Shown: positions 2,680 through 24,856 of the stretch, piece by piece
How the letters are laid out: each line of letters begins with the position of its first letter
How positions within the stretch are numbered: the first letter of the stretch is position 1
Assembly: GCF_003024925.1 (NCBI RefSeq)
Contig: NZ_PUED01000006.1
Span: 1-35,827 of the forward strand
DNA: 35,827 nt
Direction: 5' to 3'
Source of the DNA: Paramuribaculum intestinale
GTDB lineage: Bacteria > Bacteroidota > Bacteroidia > Bacteroidales > Muribaculaceae
Made by a program: the position numbers and the translations under genes
Notes under the pieces: generated by a model
Seen by the model: only the letters and a program-made list of their open reading frames with translations
What the model was told of the DNA's origin: nothing
The model's database searches: none

Positions 2680-3435
2680 TTATGAGTGCCAGATGTTCCA
2701 TGCGGCAAACGCCTGAAGTAACAACATTTCCAACCCGTTTTTTGTTTCAGCTCCATGCTCCTGCGACCGCTTCATGAACAGTGTGACGTCAGGGTTGTAG
2801 AGAAGGTCATAGCAAAGGTGTTCCCTTGTCAGTTCTTCGTAAGGAATATCAGGGCATTCGTCTACATGCGGATACATGCCGAGCGGGGTGGTGTTGACTA
2901 TTATTTTGTGTTTTGCCATGACCTCGGGTGTCAGTTCGCCATAGGTCAGCGTGTTGTCACGTTTGGTGCGCGACACCCATGTCACCTCGACTCCCAGATT
3001 CTTCAGTCCGCAGCCTACGGCCTTTGCCGCGCCACCGGTGCCGAGCACTAATGCATTCTTGCGAGCCGGGTTGAGAAGGGGGGCTATCGAATCGGAAAAA
3101 CCGATGATGTCGCTGTTGTAGCCCTTGAGCTTCAGATTCTTGCCTGAACCGATGAATTTGATGACGTTGACCGCTCCGATCACTTTCGCATCATGATCCA
3201 TCTCGTCCATGTAGGCTATCACCTGCTCCTTGTAAGGAATTGTGACATTGAGTCCCGCCAGATTGGGATACTGGGCTATGATCTCCATGAGGCGTCCTAT
3301 GTCATCGATCTCGAAATTGACATATCGGGCCGGGATTTTTTCCGCCTCGAATTTGTGGTTGAAATAGTTCTGTGAGAAAGAGTGTCCGAGCGGATACCCT
3401 ATGAGGCCGTAGAGCCGTTCAGGTGTTTTTGCCAT
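2680..3435 (-). CDS. aroE: Shikimate dehydrogenase
   Basis: This 251-residue protein reduces 3-dehydroshikimate to shikimate with NADPH in the pathway to chorismate and aromatic amino acids. Substrate-binding serines sit in the N-terminal GYPLGHSFSQ. The catalytic lysine is K69 in NVTIPYKE and its partner aspartate is D109 in GYNSD. The NADP-binding Rossmann fold shows the loop LVLGTGGAAKAVG near residues 130-140, followed by NTTPLGMYP. The length is slightly below the 270-residue norm, with no missing core motif. It is the first gene of the probable aroE-yeiH-comEC operon. A -7 promoter element lies about 145 bases upstream. Confidence 0.95.
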   Translation of the reverse strand: MAKTPERLYGLIGYPLGHSFSQNYFNHKFEAEKIPARYVNFEIDDIGRLMEIIAQYPNLAGLNVTIPYKEQVIAYMDEMDHDAKVIGAVNVIKFIGSGKNLKLKGYNSDIIGFSDSIAPLLNPARKNALVLGTGGAAKAVGCGLKNLGVEVTWVSRTKRDNTLTYGELTPEVMAKHKIIVNTTPLGMYPHVDECPDIPYEELTREHLCYDLLYNPDVTLFMKRSQEHGAETKNGLEMLLLQAFAAWNIWHS

Positions 3436-3579
3436 GCGAATTAAATCGGTTGCTTGTTATTATTACTACAGGAGTTTCGATGAAACACATGTAAGAATAT
3501 GCACTGTCGCTTGGTCGTTGGGCGGTGTCAAATAGCGTCTACTGGCAGAGCCTCGGCCATTCTCGATTGATATCTTCTG

Positions 3580-3587
3580 CAAATATA
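3580..3587 (-). promoter_or_regulatory. Putative promoter -7 element for aroE
   Basis: On the minus strand these bases read TATATTTG, an exact fit to the Bacteroidota -7 consensus TAnnTTTG. No good -33 TTTG is seen at the usual distance. It would give aroE a leader of about 140 bases, in which I see no recognisable riboswitch. Confidence 0.45.
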
Positions 3588-3630
3588 CGAATTGAAGTTC
3601 ATATATTCATCGTTTTTGCATGACAATGAG

Positions 3631-4245
3631 TCATTCTCTCTGTGCTTTTGTCTTTTTTTTGCGGATCGGTACGCCTGTTTCCTTATTTTTAGATAATTCC
3701 TTCATGCTGATCACCACTGGCATTCCGAGCCATCCGCGGGCCACAGTCACTTCACGCTTCGCTCCGATGCGGGTACGGTTGTACTCTTCCAGACTTAGAT
3801 GTTGCTCGGTCTTGCGTCCGTCGGGCAGCGTCACTACAGCTCCGTAAGTGTAGTAATGGCCGTCGGGCACGTATCTGTTACGGCCCACACGCCGGGTGCG
3901 GTTGTGGCGGTGACGAGTACGTTCGGTCACTGCGCCTATTAACGTTTCGGATTTCTCCTCGGTTGCCCCAAGACGGTTGATGCCCAGTATCGCGAGATAA
4001 CCTACGCCGCCAGCTACGAATACATGCATCAGACCCCGCAATGTCTTCTGTGTGATGGAGCGCTTCACTCCATTCTTGGCGCGAAGAGTCATAGGCAGGG
4101 AAGTCAGCGCAAGAATCGCGGCAGCGGTCAGAGATATCCAGCGTGACGACAGGGTCTGCGACGCCAGAGCTATTCCGGCGCCCCAGCTCGTTATACCGAC
4201 TATGATCAAGAGCACAAGCAGAATATAGGGCATTTTTCCTTTCAT
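3631..4245 (-). CDS. Hypothetical membrane protein with C-terminal soluble domain
   Basis: I do not recognise a named family. The 204-residue protein has three probable membrane helices (residues about 6-29, 36-53 and 70-90). These are followed by a soluble, basic region with YYTYGAVVTLPDGRKTEQH, and a Lys/Arg-rich tail (KNKETGVPIRKKKTKAQRE). The helices followed by a small beta-rich region recall DUF3592-like membrane proteins, but this is only a resemblance. The start at 4245 is used because the first membrane helix begins within six residues. The gene stands alone, divergent from tRNA-Pro, with its own -7 element (TAATTTTG) at 4272-4279. Confidence 0.7.
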   Translation of the reverse strand: MKGKMPYILLVLLIIVGITSWGAGIALASQTLSSRWISLTAAAILALTSLPMTLRAKNGVKRSITQKTLRGLMHVFVAGGVGYLAILGINRLGATEEKSETLIGAVTERTRHRHNRTRRVGRNRYVPDGHYYTYGAVVTLPDGRKTEQHLSLEEYNRTRIGAKREVTVARGWLGMPVVISMKELSKNKETGVPIRKKKTKAQRE

Positions 4246-4271
4246 TGCGAAGAAATATTTATTTACGAAGG

Positions 4272-4299
4272 CAAAATTACGAAAAAATGATTAACTTTG
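4272..4299. promoter_or_regulatory. Back-to-back -7 elements: membrane protein gene (-) and tRNA-Pro (+)
   Basis: Two TAnnTTTG elements point away from each other. On the minus strand TAATTTTG (4272-4279) faces the gene starting at 4245. On the plus strand TAACTTTG (4292-4299) lies 41 bases before tRNA-Pro. Neither has a clear -33 TTTG at 19-21 bases. Confidence 0.55.
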
Positions 4300-4340
4300 C
4301 AGCGTCTATTTGTCGCGTCGCTTATAGCGGCATGTTCAGG

Positions 4341-4415
4341 CGGGGTGTAGCGCAGTCCGGTTAGCGCACCTGGTTTGGGACCAGGGGGTCGAAGGTTCGA
4401 ATCCTTTCACCCCGA
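4341..4415 (+). tRNA. tRNA-Pro (anticodon TGG)
   Basis: A full cloverleaf can be folded. The acceptor stem is CGGGGTG (4341-4347) with CACCCCG (4408-4414), all seven pairs perfect. The D arm has GCGC on both sides. The anticodon stem is CCTGG/CCAGG with loop TTTGGGA, giving anticodon TGG for proline. The T arm contains the TTCGAAT loop. The discriminator base is A4415. CCA is not encoded and must be added after transcription. Confidence 0.97.
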
Positions 4416-4428
4416 CAATGAAGTAAAA

Positions 4429-4469
4429 GCCTTGAAAATCAGACGCAATCTGGATTTCAAGGCTTTTTT
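4429..4469 (+). terminator. Rho-independent terminator after tRNA-Pro
   Basis: The arms gccttgaaa (4429-4437) and tttcaaggc (4455-4463) pair perfectly. An inner stem (cag/ctg) closes the loop, and six T follow (4464-4469). It begins 13 bases after the tRNA. Confidence 0.92.
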
Positions 4470-4510
4470 GCGTTTATACGTAAGTTTTAGGCATTATTTC
4501 GGTGTGTTTT

Positions 4511-4570
4511 TTGGGGTCAGCGGATTTTTTTTGGGTCGTTTTGGGTCATTTTGGGTAACTTTGGAGCAAG
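4511..4570 (+). repeat. 10-base phased TTGGGTC repeat containing a possible orphan promoter
   Basis: Units of ten bases start at 4531, 4541, 4551 and 4561 (ttgggtcgtt, ttgggtcatt, ttgggtaact, ttggagcaag). A further related unit sits at 4511. The last two units together form TAACTTTG (4556-4563), an exact -7 consensus on the plus strand, with TTTG at 4530-4533 and a rather long 22-base spacer. The surrounding 4470-4858 holds no convincing gene. It does contain a small perfect palindrome, ATTGTTTAACAAT (4623-4635). Any transcript from this promoter would run towards the 3' end of the convergent PCMD gene. Confidence 0.4.
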
Positions 4571-4858
4571 TTGTTTCACTTATGTTTCAACAGCCGAAAC
4601 GATATGGAATAATATAGACAACATTGTTTAACAATAGTATGAGTAATTTAACAATTATGTTCACCCACTGATGAGCTAAATCTTCGTATCCTTTGTTTTC
4701 GCTGAATAGTTACTCACCCACAAGCTATTTGTCAATGTGTCTCGCAAGAATGCGTTGACCCTGCGAATAACCTATAGTGGCTTTGGGTTTGAAATGTTTC
4801 ATGGTGTATGGTATTATGATTGCAGTTGTTGTGTGTTGCCGGATCTGGAACGGTGCGG

Positions 4859-5827
4859 TCAGAAAGCGAAGCCTACATTGTCCACGTAGAGCGTCAGTCC
4901 TTCAGTGCCTACGTATGGCTCGCCGTTGCCGGCCGAAAACATCACGATGATATGGGTCGGAGTCGCATCTGCTGAATCCCACCCATCCTCCTGTATCCTG
5001 ACGAGTTTCCCTTTCGAATTGTGGGCATAGTAGGAGTTGTCGCCGTTGCGCAGAGGTAGCCATGACAGCGAATGATTCTTTGACACATCGCCATATACAA
5101 GCGGCACGCGGTGTCCCGATTGCCATGCCGTGCCGCGTTTGAATTTCTCTCCGCCGGTAGCTATCCGCTTTGCATGTAGGCCTCCTTGAGCGTCCTCCCA
5201 GCGGCGCTGAAGCATCACGAACACCACAGCCTCATCGCGTCCGGGCAACACTTTCTTGCCGCCGAAGCCGGTCGATTTCACCCGGGTGTCGGTCTGCGGC
5301 ATGTCTACCGAATAGTCCATCACCAGAGCTTTCGGCCGCTTGGTGTAGGGTATGCCCATCTCCATCTTGGCGTAGGGATTGCTCGTGCTTGTGATCGGCT
5401 CTATCATCTCTCCGAGAAACATCGATCCGGCCACCATCACATCCATGTTTATCAGCCCGAGCACTTTGACGCGTTCCATCTGTGTGCACAGTTTCGCACA
5501 TCGGTTGCTGGCCGTGCGGTTGGCCGGATACACGGCGTTGGAGCCTTTGGTCACACCCGATACTTTGGCGTAAACATTGCTTGTGGCCCACGGAGAGCCG
5601 CCGAGATTGCGGTATGCGGCATTGTCGCTCCCCGATATGTTCCTCTCAGGACCTACTTCGTAGAGCACCTTTTCGTGGCCGCCTATCACCACCGATTCGC
5701 GAAGAGTGCGGCGTACCCAGTGCTCGAAGTCACCGTAAGGTATCGGTTCGGTCGTTTTGGTCTGGGCAGCCGATATCATGGCCGACATTATTAATGCCGC
5801 GAGGCTTGCTGTGCGTGTTATGTTCAT
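4859..5827 (-). CDS. Secreted PCMD-domain protein (putative carbohydrate metabolism domain)
   Basis: The 322-residue protein starts with a signal peptide ending around AMISAAQ (residues 1-22). The rest resembles the PCMD family common in Bacteroidota: an N-terminal FEHWVRR region, a central beta-rich part, and the characteristic end GLTLYVDNVGFAF, where a strand with a YVDN motif closes the fold. PCMD domains are thought to bind or act on carbohydrates at the cell surface, but no catalytic activity is established. No lipobox cysteine is visible, so it may be periplasmic or exported. It lies 90 bases downstream of the DUF3943 gene on the same strand but has its own -7 element at 5847-5854. Alternatively it is a general surface adhesin-like protein. 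Confidence 0.72.
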   Translation of the reverse strand: MNITRTASLAALIMSAMISAAQTKTTEPIPYGDFEHWVRRTLRESVVIGGHEKVLYEVGPERNISGSDNAAYRNLGGSPWATSNVYAKVSGVTKGSNAVYPANRTASNRCAKLCTQMERVKVLGLINMDVMVAGSMFLGEMIEPITSTSNPYAKMEMGIPYTKRPKALVMDYSVDMPQTDTRVKSTGFGGKKVLPGRDEAVVFVMLQRRWEDAQGGLHAKRIATGGEKFKRGTAWQSGHRVPLVYGDVSKNHSLSWLPLRNGDNSYYAHNSKGKLVRIQEDGWDSADATPTHIIVMFSAGNGEPYVGTEGLTLYVDNVGFAF

Positions 5828-5846
5828 ATCTTTTTTATGGAATGTG

Positions 5847-5854
5847 CAAAGTTA
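5847..5854 (-). promoter_or_regulatory. -7 element for the PCMD gene
   Basis: The minus strand reads TAACTTTG, an exact Bacteroidota -7 box, 19 bases upstream of the start codon. No good -33 element is visible. Confidence 0.55.
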
Positions 5855-5917
5855 ATGCATTTTTTGAAGTATATGCTGTGACGTTTGTCAGTGATGTTTG
5901 TCAAAAAGTGGTATTTG

Positions 5918-6853
5918 TCAGAAAGAATATGTGAGTGTCAGTCCGTAGCGCATTCCTGTGCGCGAAGTCGGATTGAATACGAATCCTCCCGATGCGCTCG
6001 CCATGCTCCGGGGCGCGCCGTCGAAGCGTCGGATGGCTCTGTGCTGGTCGCCCCTGAAATAGCCCAGGACTTCGTTGACCGGATCGCAAAAAAAGGCCGC
6101 CACATAGCCCAGGGCGCGCGAACCGAAGATGCGGTAGCCGTTGGACATTATATGGCGTTTGGCATGATAGAAAGCCTCGCCCATGATTGAGCCTACCACC
6201 GATGTCACTACAATATCCTGAGCCGACGGAATTTCGTTGAAGGCTTCAAATCCGTATTCCCAGAAGAATGTAGAGATGCAGAAGCAATACACAAACGAAC
6301 CCCAGTAGTTGAACCCGCAGCTCCGTGCGCTCATGTAGTATGCCGCTCCGGCATAGGGGTGGAGCACAAAGTTGAAGATGAATTTGTCACCGTCCCATAC
6401 CGGACCCTCTTTGACGTGGCGAAGCCAGCGTTTGAACAACGGGGTCTTGCCGTTTTCATGACTGTTCCATGCTGTCGATTCCTGAGGAAGCAGTTCCAGG
6501 ATGCCGAGCGCGGTCAGACCGCCACCCATCAGGACTGCCGTATTGGCCCACAGGCGGTTCCAGTCGCGCATGGATCGGGTGGGGGAGTACGGATAGTCAT
6601 ACAGACTCGGTTTCTTCGACCAGCACCCTTCTGTGGCGGCACTGGTCGCTTCGGTGGTGTCGTCGGCTCCGGCATCGTCGTTTGTGATTGATGCCCGATG
6701 AAGAACGAGTGTCTGTGGCACCTTCGGAGCCTGCGGCAATGAAATGCTTGGAGTCGGTATTGATATTTCTGTCAATGTCGGCAGCGAGACGGCGCCGGCC
6801 GCCAGGTATACTGCGGAGATCATTACCGTTAATATGACCGTAATTCTTCTCAT
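5918..6853 (-). CDS. DUF3943 domain protein
   Basis: The 311-residue protein has an N-terminal signal or anchor segment (residues 1-22) and then a low-complexity Pro/Thr/Ser region to about residue 80. The DUF3943 domain (about 95-270) is recognised by FNFVLHPYAGAAYYMSARS and by FFWEYGFEAFNEIPSAQD. It holds several hydrophobic stretches and conserved His, Tyr, Arg and Glu residues. The C-terminus (GLTLTYSF) ends in an aromatic residue after alternating polar/apolar residues, compatible with a final beta strand. The function of DUF3943 is unknown. The gene is divergent from the Omp85-like gene across a 183-base spacer, in which I found no exact -7 element for this direction. Confidence 0.78.
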   Translation of the reverse strand: MRRITVILTVMISAVYLAAGAVSLPTLTEISIPTPSISLPQAPKVPQTLVLHRASITNDDAGADDTTEATSAATEGCWSKKPSLYDYPYSPTRSMRDWNRLWANTAVLMGGGLTALGILELLPQESTAWNSHENGKTPLFKRWLRHVKEGPVWDGDKFIFNFVLHPYAGAAYYMSARSCGFNYWGSFVYCFCISTFFWEYGFEAFNEIPSAQDIVVTSVVGSIMGEAFYHAKRHIMSNGYRIFGSRALGYVAAFFCDPVNEVLGYFRGDQHRAIRRFDGAPRSMASASGGFVFNPTSRTGMRYGLTLTYSF

Positions 6854-6988
6854 TGATTAAAATAGTCGATACGTTGATAGTATGCTTATTTCTTAAACGC
6901 TGGCGCGACGCTACAGTTCTGTCGTGGTAACTTTTTATGGCGGTTGCGGACAACAATCTGACCCTATCGGAAAAAGATTGACAGGCGT

Positions 6989-7023
6989 TTTGCTCACTGA
7001 TCGGAGCATTTTCAGTAATTTTG
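6989..7023 (+). promoter_or_regulatory. Promoter of the Omp85-like gene
   Basis: TTTG at 6989-6992 and TAATTTTG at 7016-7023 fit the Bacteroidota promoter pattern, though the spacer of 23 is slightly long. The ATG at 7037 follows the -7 box by only 13 bases, so the leader would be very short. Confidence 0.5.
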
Positions 7024-7036
7024 CTGCCGTAAATCA

Positions 7037-8200
7037 ATGACTGATCAGTTTCAAAAAATACTTCTGGCGGTGACGATGCTCATCATTCCGTTTGCCGGTA
7101 GAGCGTCCGACCATGGTGATCCGCTTCAGGCCGATACTGTGCCCCAACGTAAGAATATCATCGACCGCCTGCTCGATTATTTTGCCGAATCCAATAAACC
7201 CGACTATAGCAAAGGCCTTGATGTCAGTTTTATCGGAGGACCTCACTATGCGTCGGATACCAAGCTCGGCATAGGTCTTGTGGCCGCCGGCAATTATCTA
7301 GCTGACAGGTCCGACACATCGGCCATACCCTCCAACGTTTCGCTGTACTCGGATATTTCCACTGCCGGATTCGCTCTGCTCGGACTGCGTGGCACGCATA
7401 TATTCCCATCCGACCGACGGCGTATTGACTACAATATATTCTTCTATTCTTTCCCGACCGAATTCTGGGGACTCGATTTCGGAAGTCAGCGCAATGATGA
7501 TGGCAAGTCGTCATATCGTCTGTTGTCCTACAGGGCCTCTGCCACGTTTATGTGGCGTCTTGGCGACAATTTGTTCGCAGGGCCGGCGCTTGAGTTTCAT
7601 CACTATGATGCCCGCAAGGCACAGCGTCCGGAGCTGTGGCTGGGTCAGGATATGGTCACCAACACTGTAGGCGCCGGTTTCAGATTGCAGTACGATTCGC
7701 GCGACTCACACACCGGGCCGGCTACAGGTTGGCTTTTCGTGCTTGACCAGAAGTTTTGCCCGCGTTTCCTGAGCAATAGTTATGCGTTTAGCTTCACGGC
7801 ATTGCGGCTTGCCCGTTACACTCCTCTCTGGCGTGGTGGGGTGCTTGCTGCTCAGGTGGCCGGACGCTTCGCTTATGGCAATGTCTGCTGGAGCATGATG
7901 TCCAATCTCGACGAAGGGGGCGGTATGCGTAGCTATTACGAGGGTCGCTATCGCGACAAATGCGCTCTCAATGTGGTGGCAGAGTTGCGTCAGCATGTGT
8001 GGCGTCGTAGTGGTGTGACGTTCTGGGCCGGCGCCGGAGTCGTAACCCCGGCCGTCGAAAGTGTGAGATGGAGTCGTGTGTTGCCCTGCGTCGGACTTGG
8101 ATATAGGTGGGAGTTCAAAAAGCGTTGCAATGTGCGACTCGATTATGGTATAGGCCGCGGGTCATCATCTTTTTCGTTTAATATCAATGAAGCATTCTGA
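7037..8200 (+). CDS. BamA/TamA (Omp85) family outer membrane beta-barrel protein
   Basis: The 387-residue protein has a signal peptide (MTDQFQKILLAV to about residue 24). The rest is a beta barrel: alternating apolar/polar strands joined by turns, ending in phenylalanine at F387, as expected for BAM-inserted proteins. The region DEGGGMRSYYEGRYRDKC (about residues 294-311) corresponds to the conserved Omp85 loop motif that lies near GGxxxxRGY and GRYRD. LQYDSRDSHTGPATGW matches the first half of the surface-antigen domain. No POTRA domains are present, so it is a barrel-only member, too short to be BamA itself. It is probably a dedicated lipid or protein export factor. It overlaps the phosphoethanolamine transferase gene by 14 bases, implying joint translation and perhaps a shared envelope role. 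Confidence 0.83.
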   Translation: MTDQFQKILLAVTMLIIPFAGRASDHGDPLQADTVPQRKNIIDRLLDYFAESNKPDYSKGLDVSFIGGPHYASDTKLGIGLVAAGNYLADRSDTSAIPSNVSLYSDISTAGFALLGLRGTHIFPSDRRRIDYNIFFYSFPTEFWGLDFGSQRNDDGKSSYRLLSYRASATFMWRLGDNLFAGPALEFHHYDARKAQRPELWLGQDMVTNTVGAGFRLQYDSRDSHTGPATGWLFVLDQKFCPRFLSNSYAFSFTALRLARYTPLWRGGVLAAQVAGRFAYGNVCWSMMSNLDEGGGMRSYYEGRYRDKCALNVVAELRQHVWRRSGVTFWAGAGVVTPAVESVRWSRVLPCVGLGYRWEFKKRCNVRLDYGIGRGSSSFSFNINEAF

Positions 8201-20628: not shown

Positions 20629-21459
20629 TTACTTGCTTATGGTGTTGAGTGTGAACGCTCCGGATGTATGAAGCGCGAAGTCCGTACTGTCGTTGACGCT
20701 GCTGAATGAGATCCGGGCTATGCGCAGACTGCCTGTCTCCAGACTGCAGCTTGCATCGGCATCCAGTGTGCTGTGCCAGTCGATGGCTTCGACAGTCGAA
20801 AGTGAGTCGGCCTTAATACTCAGTCGGAGTGTGCGCTCTCCTAAGGCAATGGTGGATATCGACGTGTTTTGGATCTTGATATATGGATACTGGCCGAGGT
20901 CGTCCGGATTAACTGTCGCAAGGCCGAGGCGGCAGTCGTAGAAATGCGTCGTTCCTCTGATCTGCATATGGATGCTGTCGGTCGATGCGTCTTTCAGGAC
21001 TACAGGCACCTCTCTGAGCGTACTTCTGATCTTTGCCGGAGCTGCCGGTGTGATGATGCGGATCGGATAGGAGCACTCGATATGTCGGTAGTAGCCTCTT
21101 CCGGTGGAGCTGTCGCCGTCGTGTCGGCTTATGAGCAGATTGAGTTTGCCGTTGCGTTCGCTGACAGTTATATACGGAGCCAGTCCCGACGGATATTCCA
21201 CCCGGGGCGAGCCGGTGGTGTCGGCTACGATGATCTCGATGCCTGCGGATAGGGAAATGCCCAGATACCGGTCTTCGGGTTGCGTCACTTCTATGTTGTC
21301 GGCCATGGTTATGGCTACGCTCTCTGTGGATTCGTTTGAGATGACGATCGGCGACATGTCTGCTCTGATGCCGTATGATGTTGTGATCGCAATCACGCTG
21401 AGCGTGAGTATGAATCCGCCTATGGCGGTGGCGATCATTATTATGGTGGTCTTTTTCAT
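20629..21459 (-). CDS. Membrane-anchored exported protein, DUF2807-like beta-helix possible
   Basis: The 276-residue protein begins with one membrane anchor or uncleaved signal (residues about 5-30, rich in Ile/Ala). The remainder is exported and rich in beta-forming and Ser/Thr residues, with patterns such as IEIIVADTTGSPRVEYPSG and GKLNLLISRHDG followed by repeated strands ending in Asp/Ser turns. This recalls the DUF2807 (GIN, head domain of auto-transporter adhesin-like) fold, but the match is by impression only. The start ATG overlaps the stop of the GntR regulator by four bases, so the two are translationally coupled. The gene is thus likely part of the regulated response, possibly a periplasmic partner of the ABC transporter. 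Confidence 0.65.
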   Translation of the reverse strand: MKKTTIIMIATAIGGFILTLSVIAITTSYGIRADMSPIVISNESTESVAITMADNIEVTQPEDRYLGISLSAGIEIIVADTTGSPRVEYPSGLAPYITVSERNGKLNLLISRHDGDSSTGRGYYRHIECSYPIRIITPAAPAKIRSTLREVPVVLKDASTDSIHMQIRGTTHFYDCRLGLATVNPDDLGQYPYIKIQNTSISTIALGERTLRLSIKADSLSTVEAIDWHSTLDADASCSLETGSLRIARISFSSVNDSTDFALHTSGAFTLNTISK

Positions 21460-23530: not shown

Positions 23531-23531
23531 T

Positions 23532-23555
23532 AGTGTAATAGTGAAATAGTACACT
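23532..23555 (-). promoter_or_regulatory. Probable YtrA-type operator (AGTGTA-12-TACACT)
   Basis: Perfect half-sites AGTGTA (23532-23537) and TACACT (23550-23555) flank a 12-base spacer. The arrangement closely resembles the AGTGTA-spacer-TACACT repeat that I recall for Bacillus YtrA (spacer near 13). It fills the space between the -7 element and the ATG of the ATPase gene, so the operator is almost the whole 5' leader and a bound repressor would cover the transcription start. Confidence 0.78.
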
Positions 23556-23556
23556 G

Positions 23557-23586
23557 CAAAGGTATGCATAATTTTTAATTCGCAAA
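23557..23586 (-). promoter_or_regulatory. Promoter of the YtrA-type ABC operon
   Basis: On the minus strand TTTG (23583-23586) and TACCTTTG (23557-23564) are separated by 18 bases. The -7 box matches TAnnTTTG exactly and directly abuts the operator. Confidence 0.7.
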
Positions 23587-23591
23587 AAATA

Positions 23592-23622
23592 TTTCACAAA
23601 AAAAATGTATTTACTAACTTTG
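23592..23622 (+). promoter_or_regulatory. Promoter of ilvA
   Basis: TTTC (23592-23595), a 19-base spacer and TAACTTTG (23615-23622) form a good Bacteroidota promoter, with one mismatch in the -33 box. It lies 31 bases before the ilvA start. The divergent ABC operon promoter is close by. Confidence 0.65.
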
Positions 23623-23653: not shown

Positions 23654-24856
23654 ATGGAAGAATTAGACATAGCACAGGTGTTCAATGCCGCAGAGGTGCT
23701 TAAAGATGTGGCGCGTCATCCGCGTCTTATAGGTGTTACAAAGATAAATCCCGACGCACAGGTGTATCTCAAGCCTGAAAATCTTCAGCATACCGGAGCA
23801 TTCAAACTCCGTGGCGCTTACTATAAGATCTCGCAGCTTACACCCGAAGAGGCTCAGAAGGGTGTGATAGCCTGCTCGGCGGGCAATCATGCGCAGGGTG
23901 TGGCGCTGTCGGCTACGGCCAACGGTATCAAGAGCATCATCTGTCTGCCGGCGGGTGCGCCGATCTCCAAAGTGGAGGCGACAAAGCGGTTGGGAGCGGA
24001 AGTGGTGATGGTGCCTGGTGTCTACGACGATGCCTATGCTAAGGCGCTGGAACTGCAGAAGGAGCATGGATATACGCTGATACATCCGTTCGATGATCCG
24101 CTCGTGATCGCCGGACAGGGCACTATCGGTCTTGAGATCCTCGAGGAGATGCCCGATGTGGAGGCTGTGATCGTGCCTGTGGGTGGCGGTGGTCTTATCT
24201 CCGGTGTGGCGTTCGCGCTGAAGACTCTCAAGCCTGAGGTGAAAGTCTATGGTGTGCAGGCTGAGGGCGCTCCCTCGATGGCCGATTCGCTCAAGCGCAA
24301 TGAGCGTCTGCATCTCGACAGCGTTTCTACGATAGCCGATGGTATCGCGGTCAAGGAGCCTGGAATCAATACGTTCGAGATGTGCCGCAAGTATGTCGAC
24401 GAGATCGTGACCGTGAGCGACGACGAGATCGCTGCAGCTATTCTCAAGCTTATCGAGGAGCAGAAGCTCGTGGCCGAGGGCGCTGGTGCGGTGTCGGTGG
24501 CGGCTGCTATGTTCGATAAGGTGCCTGTCAAGGGCAAGAAGGTGGTGTGTCTGGTGAGTGGCGGAAATATCGATGTGACTTCGCTCAACCGTGTGATCAC
24601 ACGCGGACTTGTCAAGAGCGGCCGAGACGCTACCATCGCGATCGACCTCTCGGATAAGCCGGGACAGCTGTCGAAGGTGTGCAGCATCATCGGCGATCAT
24701 GGAGCCAATATCCTCTCCGTGCAGCATGAGCGCAATTCAAGCCATACCCAGATCAATGGCTGTACTCTCCGTGTGGAGATGGAAACCCGCAATCTGCAGC
24801 ATATCGCCGATATCAAAAAGGCTTTGCGCGAGAACGGTTTCGACGTGAAACAGTGA
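23654..24856 (+). CDS. ilvA: Threonine ammonia-lyase (threonine deaminase) with ACT domain
   Basis: The 400-residue PLP enzyme converts threonine to 2-oxobutanoate and ammonia, leading to isoleucine or, in fermentation, towards propionate. The PLP lysine is K51 in HTGAFKLRGAYYK. SAGNHAQG (residues 75-82) and PVGGGGL bind the substrate carboxylate and the cofactor phosphate. Residues about 325-400 form one ACT domain (LSDKPGQLSKVCSIIGDHG), which matches the medium-length form rather than the 500-residue biosynthetic IlvA with its two-ACT-like regulatory region. Its role may be biosynthetic or catabolic. It starts the plus-strand run of five genes; the gap to the phosphatase is 45 bases without a terminator. 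Confidence 0.94.
   Translation: MEELDIAQVFNAAEVLKDVARHPRLIGVTKINPDAQVYLKPENLQHTGAFKLRGAYYKISQLTPEEAQKGVIACSAGNHAQGVALSATANGIKSIICLPAGAPISKVEATKRLGAEVVMVPGVYDDAYAKALELQKEHGYTLIHPFDDPLVIAGQGTIGLEILEEMPDVEAVIVPVGGGGLISGVAFALKTLKPEVKVYGVQAEGAPSMADSLKRNERLHLDSVSTIADGIAVKEPGINTFEMCRKYVDEIVTVSDDEIAAAILKLIEEQKLVAEGAGAVSVAAAMFDKVPVKGKKVVCLVSGGNIDVTSLNRVITRGLVKSGRDATIAIDLSDKPGQLSKVCSIIGDHGANILSVQHERNSSHTQINGCTLRVEMETRNLQHIADIKKALRENGFDVKQ

Follow-up and report, generated by a model that had tools for sequence, protein, structure and literature searches.

A 24-bp inverted repeat, AGTGTA-N12-TACACT, between the promoter and the start codon of an ABC transporter operon in Paramuribaculum intestinale is very probably (at a probability of roughly 0.9) the operator of the YtrA-type GntR regulator encoded in the same operon, which would repress its own transcription by covering the start site. 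In the proposed mechanism, the 120-aa GntR protein would bind as a dimer to the two AGTGTA half-sites, whose centres are 18 bp apart, and the bound dimer would cover the predicted transcription start (about -3 to +21) and thereby stop RNA polymerase. The regulator would thus repress the ATPase-permease-GntR operon, its own gene included, until a putative signal releases it. In P. intestinale the operator is predicted also to occupy the 22-nt leader as far as the ATG. This reading extends a little-studied repressor family and its predicted DNA target to the Bacteroidota, a major gut phylum.

The repeat and its operon

In the window (the whole 35,827-nt stretch of DNA that was analysed), the minus strand reads TTTG, 18 nt, the -7 box, a single C (23556), the inverted repeat, a single A (23531) and the ATG of the ATPase gene (23530-23528), and the sequence-only reading, which had placed the repeat between an exact -7 element and the ATG with one base to spare, was accurate to the base (Table 1). 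TAnnTTTG boxes lie at -12 to -5 from the start in Flavobacterium psychrophilum (PMC9723704), and it is because this numbering was applied to the box here that the operator, the transcription start and the leader are predicted where Table 1 places them.

Table 1. Coordinates of the promoter, operator and genes of the ABC transporter operon in the window, and of the second operon of the same genome (locus L117, G000:C370)
Feature	Position	Strand	Basis or comment
Putative -33 element TTTG	23583..23586	-	18 nt upstream of the -7 box; sequence, and T-rich/TTTG enrichment about here in aligned relatives
-7 promoter element TACCTTTG (consensus TAnnTTTG, -12 to -5)	23557..23564	-	Sequence; consensus and numbering of PMC9723704; same distance to the operator in relatives
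Putative YtrA-type operator AGTGTACTATTTCACTATTACACT, 24 bp, 12-bp spacer	23532..23555	-	Predicted to cover about -3 to +21
Predicted 22-nt 5' leader	23531..23552	-	Predicted +1 at 23552, within the left arm of the operator; from the -7 box and the PMC9723704 numbering
ABC transporter ATPase, 281 aa	22685..23530	-	Pfam ABC_tran, 2.2e-24
Putative membrane protein of the transporter, 276 aa	21858..22688	-	Permease by position, between the ATPase gene and gntR
YtrA-type GntR regulator, 120 aa	21456..21818	-	Pfam GntR; AlphaFold model; structural matches
276-aa protein, no family match	20629..21459	-	Overlaps the end of gntR
Second operon: 117-aa protein with hydrophobic N-terminus	6941..7294	-	No family match
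Second operon: ATPase	6054..6902	-	
Second operon: putative membrane protein	5290..6057	-	
Second operon: GntR regulator	4699..5070	-	
564-aa protein	2846..4540	-	Follows the second gntR directly; carries both domains of peptide-N-glycosidase F (Pfam, 4e-50 and 3.6e-49)

The exact repeat is present as a single copy in the window, and dinucleotide shuffles gave 0.46 matches even with two mismatches permitted. In pattern searches of the 2.87-Mb genome it was the sole exact match, and the four places that differ from it by one mismatch all lack the inner YTA/TAR letters of the palindrome.

The order of the operon is ATPase-permease-GntR, with gntR as the third gene, followed by the gene for a 276-aa protein that is probably co-transcribed with gntR as part of the same operon. 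The putative membrane protein between the ATPase and the regulator had no Pfam family above the cut-off. In Parabacteroides distasonis (L177), gntR is followed by two genes, one for a hypothetical protein and one for an outer membrane beta-barrel protein. On the plus strand of the window, a TAACTTTG box (23615-23622) lies ahead of a divergent gene at 23654, which judged by its sequence encodes a threonine ammonia-lyase-like protein; the short intergenic region thus holds two promoters facing away from each other, with the operator upstream of the second, divergent-gene promoter.

The regulator

The GntR protein, which the sequence-only reading had already called YtrA-type and placed third in the operon, matches the Pfam GntR family (8.3e-13) over residues 10-72, a winged helix-turn-helix. 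Its AlphaFold model (pLDDT 94.7) consists of this winged helix-turn-helix and two C-terminal helices, residues 76-103 and 107-119, matching the short C-terminal portion, some 50 aa with two helices, that characterizes the YtrA subfamily, and the modelled fold is that of this subfamily. Two further hallmarks are present in the DNA, namely an operon with ABC transporter genes, here the ATPase and the putative membrane protein directly upstream of gntR, and a palindrome whose GT/AC half-sites lie far apart, its 24 bp being the typical site length in the subfamily (PMC6746942).

The best structural matches of the model were 3ic7 and 2du9/2ek5. The first, a putative GntR regulator from Bacteroides thetaiotaomicron, is the nearest solved structure both in sequence (E 2.6e-28) and in fold; its title gives only a putative regulator. 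The repeat described here supplies a concrete predicted operator that could be tested with this already crystallised protein. The second, the YtrA-like regulator of Corynebacterium glutamicum (2du9/2ek5), has the same fold with a short two-helix C-terminal domain at 35-36% identity, although it comes from a different phylum. Its recognition helices are 62 A apart (PMC6746942), close to the 61 A or so that corresponds by arithmetic to the 18 bp between half-site centres in the repeat.

Conservation of the repeat ahead of related operons

Relatives of the GntR protein were collected from 61 genomes around P. intestinale and from a species-level collection, with wider stretches added later; the collection contributed Pedobacter, Parabacteroides, Tannerella/Tannerellaceae and a Chitinophagaceae MAG, among others, together with single MAGs labelled Spirochaetes, Neomarinimicrobiota and Latescibacterota. 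Reading these stretches revealed the same palindrome ahead of most of the relatives' operons, with a consensus near AGTGTAYTARTATAYTARTACACT. After removal of exact regulator duplicates, 98 gntR loci were searched up to 3.5 kb upstream for RGTGTW and WACACY arms at spacers from 4 to 23. Arms separated by 12 bp were found exactly in 52 of these loci and with at most one mismatch in 87, while other spacers gave 0-2 exact matches and 2-17 with one mismatch, except for 39 at spacer 4. From the consensus, this peak is taken to stem from an imperfect copy of the arm within the operator (TATACT against TACACT), and its interpretation as a second type of site was set aside. In about a tenth of the 98 loci the 3.5-kb search showed no clear site, in some cases because the contig ends there. 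Conservation upstream of orthologous operons had been set beforehand as the point on which the operator claim should stand or fall, and it held strongly.

Across 34 less-redundant loci, information content reached 1.44 bits per column in the operator and 1.61 in the box region, against 0.49 upstream and 0.38 downstream. In most Pedobacter species (L040-L065) the right arm reads TACAGT, not TACACT, a consistent variant of that lineage. Of 76 ordinary-type loci, 74 have an open reading frame with a Walker A motif behind the operator.

The same association emerged in the opposite direction. The pattern GTGTANTANNNNNNTANTACAC was scanned across 296 Bacteroidota genomes without regard to genes, and it matched in 18 genomes, P. 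intestinale included, and at 18 places outside the window. At 15 of these places a YtrA-type gntR follows on the same strand, 1.65-2.4 kb downstream, which bears out the motif search that the sequence-only reading had proposed. The other three are not upstream of such a gene, in line with a reversed control pattern that matched five places in four of the 296 genomes. Since weaker sites escape so strict a pattern, its absence from the remaining genomes says little.

Operator type and recognition helix

Binding by the GntR protein is a prediction here, and no test of it turned up in the papers searched; the site could in principle belong to another regulator. We consider this very improbable, as site and gntR go together whichever of the two is searched for first, the half-sites are identical to those of Bacillus YtrA, and a changed operator accompanies a changed recognition helix. 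This last point comes from a paralogous clade that is represented in P. intestinale itself, where a second GntR protein of YtrA type (39% identity) is encoded in an operon whose putative operator, GGTGTTGTAGATGCGTACAACAGT, again begins 1 nt after a TACCTTTG box. All 12 regulators with RGTGTTGTA operators have His47 (helix NTHT-LK), compared with Asn47 in 86 of the 87 regulators with AGTGTAYTA operators; the lone exception, from Subdoligranulum (L120), has a site that is not significant.

In the comparative study of Suvorova et al. (PMC4494728), Asn was commonest at domain positions 37 and 39 and His at 39 was associated with G/C pairs. If their numbering follows the Pfam domain, the regulator here shares both Asn residues (N45 and N47), with residue 47 corresponding to position 39. 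The joint change of operator and helix is supportive of the operon's own GntR protein as the reader of the repeat, and because the His-type regulators form one clade it counts as one evolutionary event and not as independent replication. Two paralogous regulators in one genome, with matched operator and helix differences, would also offer an easy way of testing DNA recognition by GntR proteins.

The second operon itself, behind its RGTGTTGTA-type operator, begins with a small gene that recalls Bacillus ytrG (Table 1).

Position relative to promoter and start codon

The placement of the operator was compared in 79 loci with an adjoining TAnnTTTG box (7 or 8 letters matching). The gap between box and operator is 1 nt in 58 of them, and in 18 Pedobacter-type loci the two overlap by 2 nt. 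The spacing between operator and ATG, by comparison, ranges from 0 to 274 nt and is at most 4 nt in 35 of the 74 ordinary-type loci whose ATPase start was recognised. The conserved feature is therefore the position of the operator after the promoter and not its distance to the ATG. The proposal that the operator makes up the entire leader is borne out for P. intestinale and close relatives but does not hold as a general property, being lineage-specific and not conserved.

The commonest 5' UTR in B. thetaiotaomicron is 23 nt long (PMC7366714), and members of the phylum lack Shine-Dalgarno sequences (PMC6847099). The operator would come to occupy the whole leader because a 24-bp element fixed to the promoter meets the short leader typical of the phylum, and its apparent role as ribosome-binding region would be a by-product of such leaders, which lack a Shine-Dalgarno sequence. 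Alternatively, the fixed -3 to +21 placement could be a selected design, in which an RNA start within the left arm prevents the palindrome from folding in the message and lets a single 24-bp element double, in leaders of about 22 nt, as the repressor's site and the region where translation starts; this we regard as unlikely.

The proximity of the repeat to the ATG, here and in several relatives, also raises the question of whether it acts in RNA, as a leader hairpin that hides the start codon or binds a regulator for translational control. A fully transcribed operator could indeed pair, with a mean folding energy of -7.1 kcal/mol. Such a role is nonetheless highly unlikely, because RNA that begins at the predicted start inside the left arm loses the first three letters of that arm (AGU) and with them most of the stem, and folding weakens to a mean of -3.6 kcal/mol. 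It is the distance to the promoter and not that to the ATG that is conserved, and the length and half-sites match those of reported GntR/YtrA DNA operators. Least likely of all is that the conserved letters merely extend the promoter as a discriminator and start region, as their strict position beside the -7 box might suggest, since the site is palindromic, occupies other positions with no such box adjoining in Firmicutes and the Latescibacterota MAG, and in the 296 Bacteroidota genomes occurs mostly upstream of gntR and not at ordinary promoters. The evidence thus favours a DNA operator, bound by the operon's own regulator.

Comparison with known YtrA-type systems

A search of openly licensed papers for YtrA, Bacteroidetes, GntR and ABC transporter together returned only one paper, on MocR regulators, and the main comparative study of YtrA operators left out the Bacteroidota, with no YtrA-type regulator from Bacteroidetes among those analysed (Suvorova et al. 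2015, PMC4494728, table 2). The regulons described there resemble the present one in comprising a single operon with a single long palindrome and ABC transporter genes.

For other phyla, regions upstream of gntR were taken from records of a plasmid collection, and the Bacillus subtilis operator was taken from PMC8060467. Related sites were found upstream of gntR-ABC operons in Lactococcus (AGTGTATGGTGTATAATAGTACACA, spacer 13; 2 of 300 shuffles as good), Listeria (ACTGTACTATAGTAACTAGTACAAT, spacer 13), Acetoanaerobium (AGTGTATTATTTATATTAGTACAGC, spacer 13) and Paenibacillus (AGTGTACTATTTAACTAGTACAGA, spacer 12), with none of 300 shuffles as good for each of the last three, and in the Latescibacterota MAG. 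The half-site is thus common to several phyla, with 12- and 13-bp spacers both in use, which agrees with the suggestion of the sequence-only reading that operator and regulator are conserved across phyla. No significant site of the AGTGTA type was seen at three loci with YtrA-like genes, two on Streptomyces plasmids and one from Subdoligranulum. In Streptomyces clavuligerus (L122), a YtrA-like gene is preceded at about 59 nt by a 24-bp palindrome of another sequence, ATTCCACTATTCAGTTAGTGGAAT, which is possibly the operator of that gene itself. PMC6746942 cites GGTG-N16-CACC as the site of a YtrA-like regulator in Xanthomonas citri, likewise a 24-bp palindrome with distant half-sites but with a different half-site sequence.

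The closest parallel is B. subtilis YtrA, whose site is given as AGTGTA-N13-TACACT at ytrGABCDEF and ywoBCD (Salzberg 2011, as cited in PMC8060467). The near-identity put forward in the sequence-only reading is upheld for the half-sites, which are identical, and fails for the spacer, which is 13 bp in Bacillus and 12 bp here and in the related Bacteroidota loci, so that the site departs from the Bacillus pattern in the strict sense. In both systems, too, the GntR protein is short, its gene lies within an ABC transporter operon, and it has a single target or very few. They differ in that the B. subtilis regulator gene precedes the transporter genes, whereas here it is third, behind the ATPase and membrane protein genes, and in that the site here adjoins the TAnnTTTG box of the Bacteroidota. 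The response of B. subtilis YtrA to cell-wall antibiotics is not taken to extend to the regulator here. The switch proposed for the P. intestinale operon is thus of a known kind, and as a new case it is well supported; what sets it apart is the consistent 12-bp spacer and the position fixed to the promoter.
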